From assembly GCF_008831545.1 (NCBI RefSeq), contig NZ_CP044523.1, positions 3,534,001-3,598,000 of the forward strand: 64,000 bases of DNA. The letters run 5' to 3'. This stretch comes from Halorussus halophilus (GTDB lineage Archaea > Halobacteriota > Halobacteria > Halobacteriales > Haladaptataceae). The position numbers were made by a program, and so were the translations under genes. A model generated the notes under the pieces. It saw nothing but the letters and a program-made list of their open reading frames with translations. It made no database searches and was not told the DNA's origin. Position 1 is the first letter of the stretch. Every line of letters starts with the position of its first letter. Below, one piece after another: positions 27,087 through 63,870 of this stretch.

Positions 27087-27872
27087 GCGACGGGGTTGGG
27101 CACCTCCTCGTCGGGTCGGTGAGCAGTAGTAGCCAGCGACACGGCCGACTGGTTTGGACGGTGGGGCTAAACAGGTTCCGGTGTCACAACTCGCAGGAAT
27201 CGGTGTACTTTCTTCTGTAGGTACTTCTGTGACGACGAGAACTGCAACTGCGACCGCAACTACCGAGCAGCTAACTACTCCCGGTGCATAGCCGTGCAAA
27301 CCCCGCAGACGGGCTGGTTCGCTTCGCTCACGAGCCCTGTCGCAGTCCCCACACCTCCCCGGAAACGGCTCCGCCGTTTCCGCATCCTGTGGGCCAAGAC
27401 AACCACCGAAACGCCCGGAAAGCCAACCACCAGAAACGCGAATTTTCGCAGAATCATCTCGCGCGTCCACCAGTGGGGAGCGCGCTCCGGGGGATGGCCG
27501 GGAGCGAGGGGCGCTGTTTCGAACCGGCGATAGATTGCGTTGCGGTGCTGTTTGCAGTCGTACTCACCGCGCTCCTATCCACAAATCGACGCGAACGTTC
27601 AAATACGAAGCGGGAACCAACTCGTCGCGGACGCTTCGCGCGGTTGCGAGCAGGGAACTGGCGAGTCAGCCAGCAGTGTCTTCGACCTCGTACACCGCCA
27701 GTCCGACTAACTCGGCGCTCGCGGTTCCACCGGAGGATAAACCGCGTCCTCCGAGCCTTGGCTCGCTTCGCCAAGACACCGCTCGCGCACAACGCGGTAC
27801 TTCGAACCGCGCGAGCGGAGCCACCAATCGAGAGTCGCATCCCTTTTCGCCACCGAACCGAAACCCAGCAGT
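27087..27872. repeat. Non-coding island with dispersed-repeat copies
   Basis: About 785 bases without a convincing gene. 27725-27781 is one copy of repeat family B (CCACCGGAGGAYAAACCGCG, then CGAGCCTTGGCT), also at 37681-37790. 27539-27551 has the word TTGCGGTGCTGTT that marks most islands in this window. Several GC-rich inverted words (AAACGGCTCCGCCGTTT at 27363-27379) occur. Its 3' end carries the leader and promoter of trm1. Confidence 0.65.
27725..27781 (+). repeat. Dispersed repeat family B, copy 1
   Basis: Starts TTCCACCGGAGGATAAACC and continues to CGCCAAGACACCG. Nearly identical to 37681-37740 and, in part, 37741-37790. Contains the inverted pair CCTTGGCTCG / CGCCAAG, so may form a hairpin. 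Confidence 0.8.
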
Positions 27873-37680: not shown

Positions 37681-37790
37681 CCACCGGAGGACAAACCGCG
37701 TTCTCCGAGCCTTGGCTCACATTCGTTCGCCAAGACACCGGCAGACAAACCGCGTCCTCCGAGCCTCGCTTCGCTACGCTCAGCGAGACC
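37681..37790 (+). repeat. Dispersed repeat family B, copies 2 and 3 in tandem
   Basis: Copy 2 (37681-37740) begins CCACCGGAGGACAAACCGCG; copy 3 (37741-37790) begins GCAGACAAACCGCGTCCTCC. Nearly identical to 27725-27781. Confidence 0.8.
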
Positions 37791-37874
37791 TCTCGCGGGA
37801 CTGTCGCACCACCAAGGGGTGCGACCGCACGCGCCGGTTCGTCAGTGAAGACTTCGAAGACGATCCAGGGGCCA

Positions 37875-39678: not shown

Positions 39679-40100
39679 ACGAGACAGTAAGTACCGCTCC
39701 TTTAACCACCGAACGAAACCCCGCTGTCTTGCCGTTTGGGATGACTTGCATGTTACCAGCAGGCGACGACGACACTGGTACATCTGACACCTGCGGTGCT
39801 GGGCCGTCCGGTGGCTGTTCTCGGTGCTGTGCGGTGGTTGTTTGCGGTGCTGAGCGGTAGCTGTCGAGAACTATTTTCAACTACCGCGAACGAAGCGAGA
39901 CGCGCTCCGCGCGCCTCGTGAAGTGAGCGCGTCCGAGGAACCCTCGAAGGAGGCCGCAAAGCGGCCTCCGGAGGGGGTGACGACGTGTCATTGGGAGCGT
40001 AGCGACCGATTGCTCGGAAGACGCGGTTTGTCTTCCGGTGATTTTCATGTACGTTTTGCCAGCGGGTGGTCGCTCTGCGACCACCCCGCAGGAAAAGGTT
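39679..40100. repeat. Non-coding island: GCGGTGCTG motifs and a family A head
   Basis: 422 bases without a convincing gene. GCGGTGCTG occurs at 39793 and 39844, with TCGGTGCTGTGCGGTGG at 39821. 39881-39935 (CTACCGCGAACGAAGCGAGA ...) matches 63699-63750. Inverted words such as GGCCGCAAAGCGGCC (39953-39967) follow. Confidence 0.65.
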
Positions 40101-40391
40101 CTACTGAATATGCCCTTCGTCGCGCAACTGGTCGGCGTCCTGCTTCTCGTAGCGCCACGTGATGTCTGCCTTCTCGTCCTGCCAGTCCCACGGTTCGACT
40201 AGCACGACGTCGTCCTCTCGAATCCAGATGCGCTTTTGCATCTTGCCCGGGATGCGAGCGGTTCGTTCCTTGCCATCGGCACACCGTACTTTCACTCGGT
40301 TCGCGCCGAGCATATTGGTGACGGTGGCGAACACCTCGTCGTCGTCGGGCATGCGGAGGTTCTTCCGCCGTCCGCCGTCGTTGTCACTCAT
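40101..40391 (-). CDS. eif1a: Translation initiation factor aIF1A (eIF1A)
   Basis: 96 residues from [22 protein letters not shown]1-like fold: [47 protein letters not shown], and the family's C-terminal region [13 protein letters not shown]. It promotes binding of initiator tRNA and 30S start-site selection. TATA-like GTTAAACG (minus strand, 40414-40421) sits 23-30 bases upstream of the ATG, supporting a leaderless start. Confidence 0.97.
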
Positions 40392-40498: not shown

Positions 40499-40717
40499 AT
40501 GCTCGGAAAACTCGGAGCGAAAGGCATCGCCGGGGTGCTGATGCTCCTCGCCGGTATCGCAATCATCGCCCTCAAGAACCTCATCATCGCCGCCGGAATG
40601 GCGCTGGTCGTCCTCGGTGTCGTCCTCACCGCGTGGGGGCTCGTCTCCAGTCTGATGGCGAACTTCGGCCTCGGCGGGATGATGGGCGGCGGTGGCGGTC
40701 CGGGCGGTTTCCAATAA
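40499..40717 (+). CDS. Small two-span membrane protein with glycine-rich tail
   Basis: 72 residues from MLGKLGAKGIAGVLMLLAG. Two hydrophobic helices (GVLMLLAGIAIIAL, GMALVVLGVVLTAWGLVSSL) and a Gly/Met tail (GLGGMMGGGGGPGG). Typical small haloarchaeal membrane protein; function unknown. Divergent from eIF1A. The TATA-like element at 40469 supports this start. Confidence 0.8.
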   Translation: MLGKLGAKGIAGVLMLLAGIAIIALKNLIIAAGMALVVLGVVLTAWGLVSSLMANFGLGGMMGGGGGPGGFQ

Positions 40718-40992
40718 GAACGACCTTTTTTCTCGTCGGGTGCCGTCGCGCCGAAGGTGCTCGGTACCGCTCTCTGCTCACGGCCGCAGGCCGTCTGCTC
40801 GCGGCTTCGCCGCTCGCACGGTCCGCGGAACGTCGTTCCGCGCTATTCGCATGGTTCGAGGGACGTAGTCCCTCGGCACTCCAAAAAATGTCGATCAAAA
40901 AACGGACGCTCGAAATCTGAGCGCGCCGCGCTCAGATTTCTCACGTCTTCTTCACGGTGGTGACCTACCGCAGGAGGAAATCCCCCTCGCCG
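40718..40992. repeat. Dispersed repeat family A, copy 1
   Basis: Starts ACCTTTTTTCTCGTCGGGTG (40724) and contains several palindromes: CGGCCGCAGGCCG, GCGGCTTCGCCGC, GAGGGACGTAGTCCCTC and GAAATCTGAGCGCGCCGCGC (40912 on). Then TCACGTCTTC. Shares its ends with 54527-54650. Confidence 0.8.
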
Positions 40993-41973
40993 CTATCCTT
41001 CCAACTCGCGCAACTTCTCGCGCCCTGGTGCAATCAACTCGTCCAAGTAGTCCGCCAGCGCGCCCTTCGCGTCCGCTGGGTGGAGTTCGCCGCTCTCCAA
41101 ATCGTCCGCGAGCGTCTCGTAGTCGTCGTACTCCAGATTGCCGCCGTACTCGTCGGGTCGCTCCACGACGACCTGCTCGAATCGCGGGAAGACGTGGAAC
41201 TGGAAGATTTCCAGCACCGGGTTTTCGAGGTCGCCCTCCGGATTTCTGGTCGGCGGGCAGAACGCCGAGTTGACCTTCTCCTCGATGTCTTCCGTCGAGT
41301 CCTCCATCGAGATGGTGACACCCGAACTGCTGGACATCTTCCCCTCGCCCGTTCCGAGGTCGGCGATAATCGGCGTGTGAATGCACGGCCGGGCCTCGTA
41401 GCCGATTTCCGGCAGTTCTTCGCGCATGAGCATGTGAACCTTCCGTTGGTCGAGACCGCCGACCGCGAGGTCCAAGTCGAGGTACTCGATGTCGAGCGCC
41501 TGCATCAGCGGGTAGACGACGTGGCTGACCTTCGCCGTCTCACCGCCCTGCAACTCCGCCATCGCTCGCTGGGCGCGGTTGAGCGTCGTGCCGAGTTCGA
41601 GTTTGTGGAGGTCCAGCGCGTAGTCGTCGTCTAGCTGGTACTCAGAGCCGTAGACGAACTCGGTCTGCTCTTCGTCGAGACCGTACGCGAGGAACTGCGC
41701 TCGCATCTTCTCGGCCGTTTCCTCGATTTCCTCGAAGGAGCCTTTGCCGTTGAGGTAGGCGTGAACGTCCGCCAGTAGAATGATGACTTCCATGCCCGCC
41801 TCCTGCAGGTCGATGAGTTTGTTGGCAGTCAGCATGTGGCCGATGTGGAGCACGCCGGATGGCTCGTAGCCGACGTAGACCCGCTTCCCTTCGGGGTCGT
41901 CGGCTAGCTCTTCCACCTCCTCCTCGGTGACGGCTTCCTCGACGTTCCGCGTAATCAAGTCGTAGGCGTCCAT
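40993..41973 (-). CDS. tyrS: Tyrosyl-tRNA synthetase
   Basis: 326 residues from MDAYDLITRNVEEAVTEEEV. Class I signatures: YEPSGVLHIGHMLTANK (HIGH) and GEGKMSSSSGVTISM (KMSKS-like). KVSHVVYPLMQALDIEYLDLDLAVGGLDQRKVHML is the tyrosine/adenylate-binding region of archaeal TyrRS. Archaeal/eukaryote-type in length, with no bacterial S4 domain. ATG at 41973 is preferred over longer open frame to 42057. Confidence 0.97.
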   Translation of the reverse strand: MDAYDLITRNVEEAVTEEEVEELADDPEGKRVYVGYEPSGVLHIGHMLTANKLIDLQEAGMEVIILLADVHAYLNGKGSFEEIEETAEKMRAQFLAYGLDEEQTEFVYGSEYQLDDDYALDLHKLELGTTLNRAQRAMAELQGGETAKVSHVVYPLMQALDIEYLDLDLAVGGLDQRKVHMLMREELPEIGYEARPCIHTPIIADLGTGEGKMSSSSGVTISMEDSTEDIEEKVNSAFCPPTRNPEGDLENPVLEIFQFHVFPRFEQVVVERPDEYGGNLEYDDYETLADDLESGELHPADAKGALADYLDELIAPGREKLRELEG

Positions 41974-45388: not shown

Positions 45389-45621
45389 GTCCCTTCGTCG
45401 GACCGCGAGGAGTAAACCCGCTTCGAAACCGCTCGCGTCGGCGTCCGCTCGCAACTCCGGTTACATCGCGCGAAACGCTCGGTTACGAGTGGAACCCGTT
45501 CGGGGAAATACGAAGCTAAGTCGGGCCTATACGGCCGTATCAGCGTGTTACAAGCGTGAACGGTCGCGCCCGTTTATTCGCGGCCTTCACGTCGCTTTGT
45601 TCGCGGATTAGGGGGGTACAA
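45389..45621. other. Intergenic region upstream of the repeat-rich secreted protein
   Basis: 233 bases, no gene. Contains the symmetric word CCTATACGGCCGTATCAG at 45524-45541 and no obvious strong TATA box. Confidence 0.4.
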
Positions 45622-47691
45622 ATGACACGTGACAACAGGACCTTTAGCGCCGTGTTCATGGCCGTTCTACTGGTGCTCGCCAGTGGCACAGCGGTGTCGC
45701 TCGCAGTAACCGGCGACAGTAGCCAAGCGGCCGGAGCGAACGCGGTTAGCCTCCAAGACGAAGACGGACAGCCCACAGCAAACGTAACCTTTAGCGACCA
45801 AACGTCCGACGACGGCGCGACGATAGTCGTCGATTCGGTGACGCTCTCGGAGGGTGGCTTCGTCGCCATCCACGACGAGACGCTACTCGACGGTGACGCC
45901 GTCGGGAGCGTCGTCGGCGTCTCGGACTACCTCGAAGCGGGGACCCACGAGAACGTGGAAATCACGCTCGCTCGTCCCCTCAACGAGAGCCAGTCGCTCA
46001 TCGCCATGCCGCACTTGGACACCAACGAGAACCAAGTGTACGACTTCGTTATCGCCAACGGTGCCACGGACGGTCCGTACACCACTGACGGACAGATAGT
46101 CGTAGACCAAGGGATGGTGAGCGTCGGTGAGGAACCGGCGGAAACGACGACTGAGGAAGAGGAACCAGTCGAAACCACCACTGAAGAAGAGGAACCAGTC
46201 GAAACCACCACTGAAGAAGAGGAACCAGTCGAAACCACCACTGAAGAAGAGGAACCAGTCGAAACCACCACTGAAGAAGAGGAACCAGTCGAAACCACCA
46301 CTGAAGAAGAGGAACCAGTCGAAACCACCACTGAAGAAGAGGAACCAGTCGAAACCACCACTGAAGAAGAGGAACCAGTCGAAACCACCACTGAAGAAGA
46401 GGAACCAGTCGAAACCACCACTGAAGAAGAGGAGCCGGTCGAAACGACGACTGAGGAAGAAGAGCCGGTGGAGACGACCACCGAAGAACCCGCCGAGGAC
46501 CAACAGCAGTTCATCTTCAAGATAGAGCAACTGCAGATCGACGAGTGGTCGTTCGTCATCGGCGATTCCGAAGAACCCGACCGCACTGAGACGGTCAGTG
46601 ACGTGTCCGTCAGCGACCGACGCGTCGAAATCAATCTCTCTGAGGTTCTCGCTCAGCAGGACATGGCTGCGGGTGACGTGACCACCCAAGACCCTGCGGC
46701 GGCCCAAGCGACCGTCGAGGAACAGCTCTCTGGGGACATCCAGACGGTTCGGTTCGTCCTCCGGGACATCTCCATCGAGAACGTCACGTTCGTCATCACG
46801 GCACCGGCCGACATGGAACTGCCAGAGCCGCCCATGATGACGACGACGCCGGAGGAGCCGGAGACGACTGAGGAACCGGTGGAGACGACCACCGAGGAGC
46901 CTGTCGAAACCACGACTGAGGAACCAGTGGAAACCACGACTGAAGAGCCGGTCGAGACGACGACCGAAGAACCAGTCGAAACCACGACTGAAGAACCGGT
47001 GGAAACGACGACCGAGGAACCGGTGGAGACCACCACTGAGGAGCCGGTCGAGACGACGACCGAAGAACCAGTGGAAACCACAACTGAGGAACCGGTGGAA
47101 ACGACGACCGAAGAACCGGTCGAAACAACCACTGAGGAACCAGTTGAAACCACGACTGAGGAACCGGTGGAAACGACCACCGAAGAGCCGGTGGAAACCA
47201 CGACCGAAGAGCCGGCAGAGACGACCACCGAGGAGCCTGTCGAGACGACGACAGAGGAACCCGCAGACCTCGCGTCCTTCGAAGTCAGTGAACTCGACGC
47301 ACCCGAGGAAGCGGCGGCCGGTGACGACATCAACGTCTCCGCCGTCATCAGCAACCCGAACGAACAGCAGACGACCCAGAGTATCGCGTTCCGACTCGAA
47401 GGGACCGTCATCGCTCGCCAAGACGTCACCCTAGAGGGTGGCGAAGAGCGTACTGTCACCTTCGAGATAAACACGACCGGAGTCCCGTCGGGCGAGTACA
47501 TCCACGGCATCTACAGCCAAGGATTCGGTGACCTCGCGGTCATCACCATCGCGGAACCGCCCGCGGAGACTACGGCGGCAGCGACGACCGAAGCGGACGA
47601 CGAAGAGACGACGGAAGCTGAAGAGACCGAGACGCCCGCCGAAGCGACGACCACTGCAGCACCCGCCGAGACGACGACGGCAGAGGCGTGA
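45622..47691 (+). CDS. Secreted acidic repeat protein with two Glu/Thr/Val repeat arrays
   Basis: 689 residues from MTRDNRTFSAVFMAVLLVLA (signal or anchor helix). A beta domain resembling DUF7282 follows (~55-165: ANVTFSDQTSDDGATIVVD ... VYDFVIANGATDGPYTTDG). Array 1 is ~11 copies of EEEPVETTTE (10 residues), DNA 46141-46470. A second domain with FIFKIEQLQIDEWSFVIGD and VTFVITAPADME follows. Array 2 is about 16 copies of EEPVETTT (8 residues), DNA ~46870-47265. A CARDB-like domain (FEVSELDAPEEAAAGDDINV) and a Thr/Ala tail end it. Probably a cell-surface stalk. No sortase or PGF motif seen. Confidence 0.88.
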   Translation: MTRDNRTFSAVFMAVLLVLASGTAVSLAVTGDSSQAAGANAVSLQDEDGQPTANVTFSDQTSDDGATIVVDSVTLSEGGFVAIHDETLLDGDAVGSVVGVSDYLEAGTHENVEITLARPLNESQSLIAMPHLDTNENQVYDFVIANGATDGPYTTDGQIVVDQGMVSVGEEPAETTTEEEEPVETTTEEEEPVETTTEEEEPVETTTEEEEPVETTTEEEEPVETTTEEEEPVETTTEEEEPVETTTEEEEPVETTTEEEEPVETTTEEEEPVETTTEEEEPVETTTEEPAEDQQQFIFKIEQLQIDEWSFVIGDSEEPDRTETVSDVSVSDRRVEINLSEVLAQQDMAAGDVTTQDPAAAQATVEEQLSGDIQTVRFVLRDISIENVTFVITAPADMELPEPPMMTTTPEEPETTEEPVETTTEEPVETTTEEPVETTTEEPVETTTEEPVETTTEEPVETTTEEPVETTTEEPVETTTEEPVETTTEEPVETTTEEPVETTTEEPVETTTEEPVETTTEEPVETTTEEPAETTTEEPVETTTEEPADLASFEVSELDAPEEAAAGDDINVSAVISNPNEQQTTQSIAFRLEGTVIARQDVTLEGGEERTVTFEINTTGVPSGEYIHGIYSQGFGDLAVITIAEPPAETTAAATTEADDEETTEAEETETPAEATTTAAPAETTTAEA
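46141..46470 (+). repeat. 30-base tandem repeats in the secreted protein
   Basis: Eight perfect copies (46171-46410) of a unit that opens GAAACCACCACTGAAGAAGA are followed by a near-perfect ninth (46411-46440) and flanked by degenerate copies (46141-46170, 46441-46470). The frame is kept because 30 is a multiple of three. Confidence 0.95.
46870..47265 (+). repeat. 24-base tandem repeats in the secreted protein
   Basis: About sixteen units coding EEPVETTT. The codons vary synonymously from unit to unit (GTCGAAACC, GTGGAGACG, GTTGAAACC), so DNA identity is lower than in the 30-base array. Confidence 0.9.
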
Positions 47692-54482: not shown

Positions 54483-54821
54483 ATGTGTGTTTTGCAACTC
54501 GCTCGGCGGGGAACTAGTTTTCGACGCCACCTTTTTTCTCGTCGGGTGCCTACGCGCCGGAGGCGCTTGGCACCCTCCTCCAAAAAATCTGGACCAAAAA
54601 AATCGACGCTTGAAATCTGTGCGCGCCGCGCACAGATTTCGCACGTCTTCCACGATTGGTTCGACTACAGTACAGCACCGCACAGCGAGGTCAACAGCCG
54701 TGCGCCGACCGCATTGGTGACCGACAATATCCACAAAAAGTTACAGAACTCGCGTTGCGTCGAATCGGCGGGTTTCGCAGGCACCCGAACCACCTTTTCC
54801 CGTGGGAGTCAATCGATTGGC
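54483..54821. repeat. Non-coding island with family A copy 2
   Basis: 339 bases. 54527-54650 is family A copy 2: CACCTTTTTTCTCGTCGGGT, then CTCCTCCAAAAAATCTGGAC and GAAATCTGTGCGCGCCGCGC. Next to it is the inverse GCGGTGCTGT word (54667-54682). No gene. Confidence 0.75.
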
Positions 54822-63454: not shown

Positions 63455-63870
63455 GGCTTCCTCCTGTGTGCGGTGACCGGCCAGCAAAACAGCGTCTCCA
63501 ACCCCCTCAGTGTCTCGATACCGGTCGATTCCGCGTACTAATCTGTAGGGGCTACACGACCCTAAGTGTTTCATCTGTCAGTGCAGGGGAATCCGGGTTG
63601 AGCGGGGTTTGAGGTTGACTTCGTGGCCATTTTCGTTTGGATAATTCCCGCTGGTTGCGGTGCGGTGGCGGCTCGGAGCGGAAGAGGTCCCAGTGACTCT
63701 ACCGCGAACGAAGCAAGGCGCGCACCGCGCGCCTCGCTGAGAGAGCGGGTCTTTTTGGTCCAGATTTTTGCGAGGAGGGTGGCAAAGCGCGGCGAAGCCG
63801 AGCGAAGCCACCCAACGAGTAAAAAGGTGGTTTCGAAGCTCTTTTAGCCGTACCACGGGAACGCCCGTCT
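63455..63870. repeat. Non-coding island with family A copy 3 in reverse orientation
   Basis: 416 bases. 63656-63673 contains TTGCGGTGCGGTGGCGG. 63699-63750 matches the 39881-39935 head. 63755-63835 is the inverse of 54527-54595 (GGTCCAGATTTTTGCGAGGA; GCCACCCAACGAGTAAAAAG). No gene. Confidence 0.75.
63699..63835 (-). repeat. Dispersed repeat family A, copy 3
   Basis: Reverse-oriented relative to 40718-40992 and 54527-54650. It begins on the plus strand with CTACCGCGAACGAAGC. It contains the palindrome GGCGCGCACCGCGCGCC. Confidence 0.75.

Follow-up and report, generated by a model that had tools for sequence, protein, structure and literature searches.

A palindromic repeat of haloarchaea that probably acts as a two-way T-tract terminator at gene boundaries

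The usual description of an archaeal terminator is a bare T-tract. A reporter assay in Haloferax volcanii found 95% termination in vivo at an inserted T5C site (PMC7237163). Other described elements are built mainly from palindromes and include the PATEs and SMRs of Haloquadratum walsbyi (PMC3119063), the REP/BIME sequences of bacteria, in a survey whose main text does not mention haloarchaea (PMC12306157), and hairpins that change by template switching, a process which yields multi-base, perfectly paired arm changes without intermediates and requires no selection on an RNA fold (PMC8794818). The haloarchaeal repeat described here has something in common with each of them. Like the T5C terminator it presents T5-6 followed by C a few bases past a stop codon, but its tract has a counterpart on the opposite strand and is part of a palindromic repeat of about 125 nt that occurs in dozens of similar copies. 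It is short, palindrome-rich, non-coding and present in tens of copies, as are PATEs and SMRs, from which it differs by its fixed boundary placement, its orthologous positions and the fact that no IS605-type link was found. With REP/BIME it shares intergenic palindromes and a mosaic composition, although it is longer, far less numerous and has T and A tracts flanking the palindrome. Its arms change as those of template-switch hairpins do, except that the latter belong to RNA genes whereas the palindromes of the repeat are probably DNA or terminator elements. The repeat is read here as a bidirectional T-tract terminator or boundary element, located at fixed gene boundaries and homogenised within each species, with a probability of about 0.6.

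The window analysed is a stretch of 64,000 nucleotides (G000:C1:3534001-3598000) from a Halorussus genome of 4.45 Mb, G000. A preliminary description had proposed that three places in it carry one repeat family with shared starts and a common block. All of these pieces were located and the family proved larger, with about 45 distinct copies of a dispersed repeat of about 125 nt in this genome, three of them in the window, and further copies in relatives. The layout is NNACC-T5/6-N4-TCGGGTG-hp1-CACCnCTC-N4-A5/6-8 nt-A5/6-hp2, where hp1 and hp2 are hairpin-forming palindromes. The features of the window are as follows (window positions).

40718..40947, plus strand: copy 1, a long form that occupies most of the space between the convergent genes for DUF7470 (40499-40717, plus) and a tRNA synthetase (40993-41973, minus)
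40721-40742, plus strand: head of copy 1
40726..40731, plus strand: T6 tract of copy 1, then C, 8 nt past the TAA stop codon
40738..40768, plus strand: hp1 of copy 1, GGGTGCC...GGTACC stem (model match 40736-40772)
40773..40881, plus strand: inserted block of copy 1, about 110 nt, with four further palindromes
40883..40902, minus strand: A6-TGTCGATC-A6 of copy 1, that is, two T6 tracts on the minus strand
40905..40947, plus strand: hp2 of copy 1, GACGCTCGAAATCTGAGCGC / GCGCTCAGATTTCTCACGTC
54527..54647, plus strand: copy 2, standard form
54527-54548, plus strand: head of copy 2
54532-54537: T6 tract of copy 2, upstream of hisG (54482-53622, minus strand) at 48-49 nt from its start codon
54582..54602, minus strand: A6-TCTGGACC-A7 of copy 2, the minus-strand T tracts
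54605..54647, plus strand: hp2 of copy 2, CTGTGC/GCACAG form
63701..63831, minus strand: copy 3, T5 form (CCACC-TTTTT-ACTCG)
63830-63809, minus strand: head of copy 3
63769-63752, minus strand: A5 block of copy 3
63702..63748, minus strand: tail hairpin of copy 3, CCGC...GCGG type, whose outer arm is the "second head" of the preliminary description
39881..40103, minus strand: diverged composite behind the eIF-1A gene, tentatively of the same family, with a T4 tract 3-5 nt past the eIF-1A stop codon

A covariance model built from the family re-finds the window copies at 54526-54648 (plus, 118 bits), 63701-63831 (minus, 64 bits) and 40873-40948 (plus, 60 bits). The paired change between copies 1 and 2 (CTGAGC/GCTCAG against CTGTGC/GCACAG) is present as reported, and the second head CTACCGCGAACGAAGC noted at 39881 and 63699 is real. 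Copy 3 belongs to the family with small corrections to its details: it reads CCACCTTTTTACTCGTTGGGTG and is devoid of the GAAATCTG hairpin. Behind eIF-1A there are a palindrome (40059-40091), A4 tracts (40042-40060) and a tail ending in GCTTCGTTCGCGGTAG, and the second head at 39881 is the far end of the whole composite; the weak model score (13 bits) makes the assignment of this composite as a diverged member tentative.

Within G000, copy 1 used as a BLASTN query gave 54 matches and the head 19-mer gave 47, versus 2 for a reversed control. The covariance model (R1, built from 24 copies) gave 68 matches, which correspond to the roughly 45 distinct elements, the remainder being reverse-strand or partial matches. 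The model also found matches in 45 of 59 relatives, other families included; as it was trained on G000 copies, sampling elsewhere is biased toward G000-like forms. Of 146 genomes from the order, 37 contain the 18-mer CTTTTTTCTCGTCGGGTG when one mismatch is allowed, and related copies are found in many of its families. A rigid layout pattern recovered one copy in a 400-kb sample of G000 and none in samples of G009 and G017, so that a looser model is required for diverged forms, and a scan of the window for bare hairpins, with a stem threshold that was too strict, recovered only the eIF-1A composite. A description of the element was not found among open-licence papers.

Since a T tract precedes hp1 and A tracts follow it, T5-6 tracts are directed inwards on both strands. 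The plus-strand tract is 5-7 nt long in 86 of 87 copies and is followed by C in 74 of the 87; the opposing A5-6 tract is present in 86 copies and the second one, A5-8, in all 87. On the minus strand, 51 of the 87 have a C directly after the T tract that is closest to hp1. Such runs are otherwise scarce: by a rough count, about 14 of the 36 T6/A6 tracts in a 400-kb G000 sample belong to these elements. In the predicted fold the T and A tracts pair together; RNAalifold missed this T6/A6 stem around hp1, and the structure was therefore set by hand. The 8-nt linker takes a few forms, chiefly TCTGGACC, TGTGGATC, GCTGGACC and CGTCGATG, and its inner half pairs with the bases preceding the T tract and covaries with them across genomes (CCA/TGG, CGA/TCG, GGA/TCC, GCA/TGC). 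The ends of hp1 are inverted repeats and hp2 falls outside them. A GC-rich hairpin stands directly before the T tract on the minus strand (hp2, then T6), and the order is reversed on the plus strand (T6, then hp1). Downstream of hp2 many copies of G000 and G013 have a stretch in common, CTGGTGCGACTTCCGCACAGCACCGC ... GCCACACGCCTCCCCAGCCGATTC, and the repeat may thus be longer than its described extent. Seven G013 copies (among L171-L195) have a doubled head, CCCACCTTTCGTT-CCCACCTTTTTTC, which is a partial tandem copy of the T-tract start.

The four interior palindromes reported for copy 1 constitute a block of 109-110 nt between hp1 and the A6 tract. The block is identical at 108-110 of 110 positions among five G000 copies at unrelated places, whose hp1 and hp2 differ; shorter relatives occur in other copies, and in most copies ACTC or GCTC is found at both ends of the block. 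It is a separate, recently spread unit, dispersed by conversion or insertion, and is of the size of SMR-A (PMC3119063).

Placement was examined in 109 copies from G000, G013 and 19 other genomes, with genes called by a purpose-written codon-usage caller. The T tract faces a stop codon in 76 copies, lying within 25 nt of it in 70 (median 7), so that a run of at least five T soon after the stop codon, as in an archaeal T-tract terminator, was found. In the other 33 it faces the start codon of a gene that is transcribed in the direction away from the element, 28 times at 38-67 nt (median 48), and the stretch between head and start codon often contains, on a qualitative view, an AT-rich promoter-like hexamer near -30. 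Copy 3 has this arrangement: some 41 nt, including the promoter-like CGAAGCTCTTTTAG, separate the end of its head from a downstream ATG (63872, plus strand). The two boundary positions together account for 98 of the 109 copies, against 18.8 expected and a maximum of 33 over 2000 trials in which each element was slid and flipped inside its own gap; the tail side has no comparable tightness of distance. Compared with all gaps of 140 nt or more in 400 kb of G000, the sole source of this background, the copies are over-represented in convergent gaps (Fisher p 3e-4) and under-represented in divergent ones (p 3e-5); for G000 copies alone the divergent-gap depletion is not significant. Selection on the position of the element is strong.

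T runs on both strands combined with placement at gene boundaries make it most likely that transcription is halted from both sides. RNA polymerase coming from either direction would meet a T5-6 tract first and a long GC-rich palindrome next; the T tract would end the transcript and the palindrome behind it, bare or protein-bound, could aid polymerase stalling as a hypothetical roadblock. Downstream of a gene, the plus-strand tract would terminate the mRNA no more than about ten bases past its stop codon, while upstream of a promoter the paired minus-strand tracts would stop polymerases that read through from the neighbouring gene short of the promoter and so may insulate it. Template switching inside the palindrome would keep its arms matched. 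Several features speak against a terminator: the 12 of 109 copies that lie between divergent genes have no sense read-through to stop, the plus-strand hairpin is downstream of the T tract, opposite to the order in a bacterial intrinsic terminator, and 125 conserved bases are more than a plain T-tract needs. A more specific version, for which the odds are low, is a dedicated haloarchaeal class of two-way roadblock terminators, in which T tracts lead into a central dyad bound by a hypothetical polymerase-halting protein and the sites evolve in concert via template switching and gene conversion; it would be alike in principle to the T-rich element plus roadblock of eukaryotic Pol I. If the terminator reading is true, haloarchaea would have a compound terminator, a conserved, symmetric and dispersed element that borders the same genes in different families, and the sequence forms peculiar to each species would be a rarely seen example of a regulatory DNA element evolving in concert.

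Eleven of 24 G013 loci have the same neighbouring gene as a locus of G000, three of them with the element upstream of a promoter. The calculated expectation, for 42 and 24 loci among about 4400 genes, is about 0.2; position is therefore conserved. When 40 further loci are added there are 17 orthologous clusters, some of them across families, at genes such as TFS (G000, G013, G008, G052), SpeB (G000, G013, G055), CarS, a KaiC-like gene and halocyanin. When the SpeB locus is read directly, G001 and G002 also have a clear element, G017 has a diverged one and the other species have none. At the NYN locus several more species have, by eye, T-tract/palindrome structures that are diverged but lie at a similar distance. 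Copies within a genome are 82% (G013) or 74% (G000) alike. Orthology does not raise the similarity between G000 and G013 copies: orthologous pairs are 58-75% alike and non-orthologous ones 72%, and the 370-nt flanks of the orthologous pairs are 74-89% alike. The copies evolve in concert, being homogenised inside each species while their gene-boundary positions persist.

These data also bear on the possibility that the repeat is a non-autonomous mobile element (PATE-, SMR- or REP-like) that inserts beside T-rich terminators or promoters and is simply tolerated. Bursts in particular species (53 matches in G000 and 34 in G013, versus 0-12 in other relatives of the genus and family and at most 28 in other families), patchy presence among species at the SpeB and NYN loci, and the near-identical block of copy 1 at five unrelated places would suit such an element, and Haloquadratum is known to carry mobile repeats that are small and palindromic (PMC3119063). 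It is nevertheless unlikely. The 11 shared loci and the cross-family clusters favour inheritance over fresh insertion, a simple mobile element being downgraded because positions are orthologous, and head orientation and distance are nearly fixed. The genome encodes only two Y1 transposases, both on replicon C3, and no copy adjoins them; neither locus gave a model match, where a PATE/IS605-derived element would be expected to share near-terminal palindromes with the transposon, and about 45 copies of about 125 nt fall short of the hundreds of short palindromes, with a REP-associated transposase, typical of REP/BIME. BLAST searches found no copy in phage records and a single plasmid record, from Halorussus caseinilyticus (NZ_CP119810.1), with the element at the same position as in G002, of the same genus (169442-169567); a pattern scan of viral contigs gave one match, lacking the remainder of the element. 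Empty sites within the genus are too diverged for a target-site duplication to be read.

The preliminary description took paired changes as an argument for structural selection. The pairing survives inspection of other copies, where the arms do not vary independently: in hp2 double Watson-Crick changes exceed mismatched cells by 80 to 13 in G000 and by 74 to 1 in G013, and covariation is above that of shuffles. The inference to structural selection is weaker than it seems. Over whole stems, G-T and A-C cells number 5 and 17 in G000 and 2 and 4 in G013, counts that are not independent events since the copies are related. In hp1 of G013 the 11-nt outer arms have 5-9 mismatches in 22 copies, none in three and in no copy 1-4; L172 has a left arm exactly complementary to its right one, and L176 and L181 each have a right arm exactly complementary to the left one. 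Near-absent G-U steps together with whole-arm flips are the mark of template switching, so compensatory changes in palindromes are by themselves no proof of RNA structure or of selection on it; the way in which the arms change resembles copying at the DNA level, by template switching or arm correction. A conserved RNA fold was rejected as the main reading on the missing G-U pairs and the all-at-once arm changes. It is accordingly improbable that the repeat is a structured RNA (small RNA or 3' UTR element) whose fold is selected for, even though predicted folds are strong (z-scores -6.9 to -10.7): both strands fold about equally well, the outer hp1 arms are non-complementary in most G013 copies, a T6 tract lies ahead of the hp1 fold on both strands, and an Rfam scan of the window returned nothing at gathering score, the repeat not being a described Rfam family. 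In other genera hp1 has a recurrent T-G pair, GGTGTCC/GGGCACC (e.g., L366, L118, L196), a valid U-G pair on the plus strand. DNA template switching leaves it unexplained; it would fit plus-strand RNA, and in this respect counts against a terminator, or two unequal half-sites. A protein-binding dyad (TCGGGTG...CACC) serving chromosome organisation or regulation, with termination as a secondary function, would agree with TCGGGTG and CACCnCTC being the most constant parts across families while the adjoining N4 arms vary and are partly compensated; this too is doubtful, as the spacing of the half-sites varies widely through loops and inserts and no protein emerged as a candidate.

Other repeats were seen alongside the probable terminator. 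The intergenic repeat CACCGGAGGACAAACCGCGTCCTCCGAGC occurs in direct and inverted copies at window positions 27728-27788, 37682-37742, 37736-37796 and 39995-40040, and also upstream of the NYN gene in G003. TrpA of four Halorussus genomes (G000, G006, G007, G008; L392 at G000:C1:2570755-2571654, and L393-L395) has, between TYYNLIYQYG and VEPFV, an in-frame insertion of about 19 residues from palindromic DNA (GAGGCGCGACGCGCCTC, GCGAGCGGCGAAGCCGCGAGC), resembling the Rickettsia palindromic elements inserted into genes; the other fourteen genomes have shorter, unrelated stretches at this site. Finally, an open frame at window positions 45556-47691 contains tandem repeats of 30 and 24 nt that encode acidic and threonine-rich repeats.
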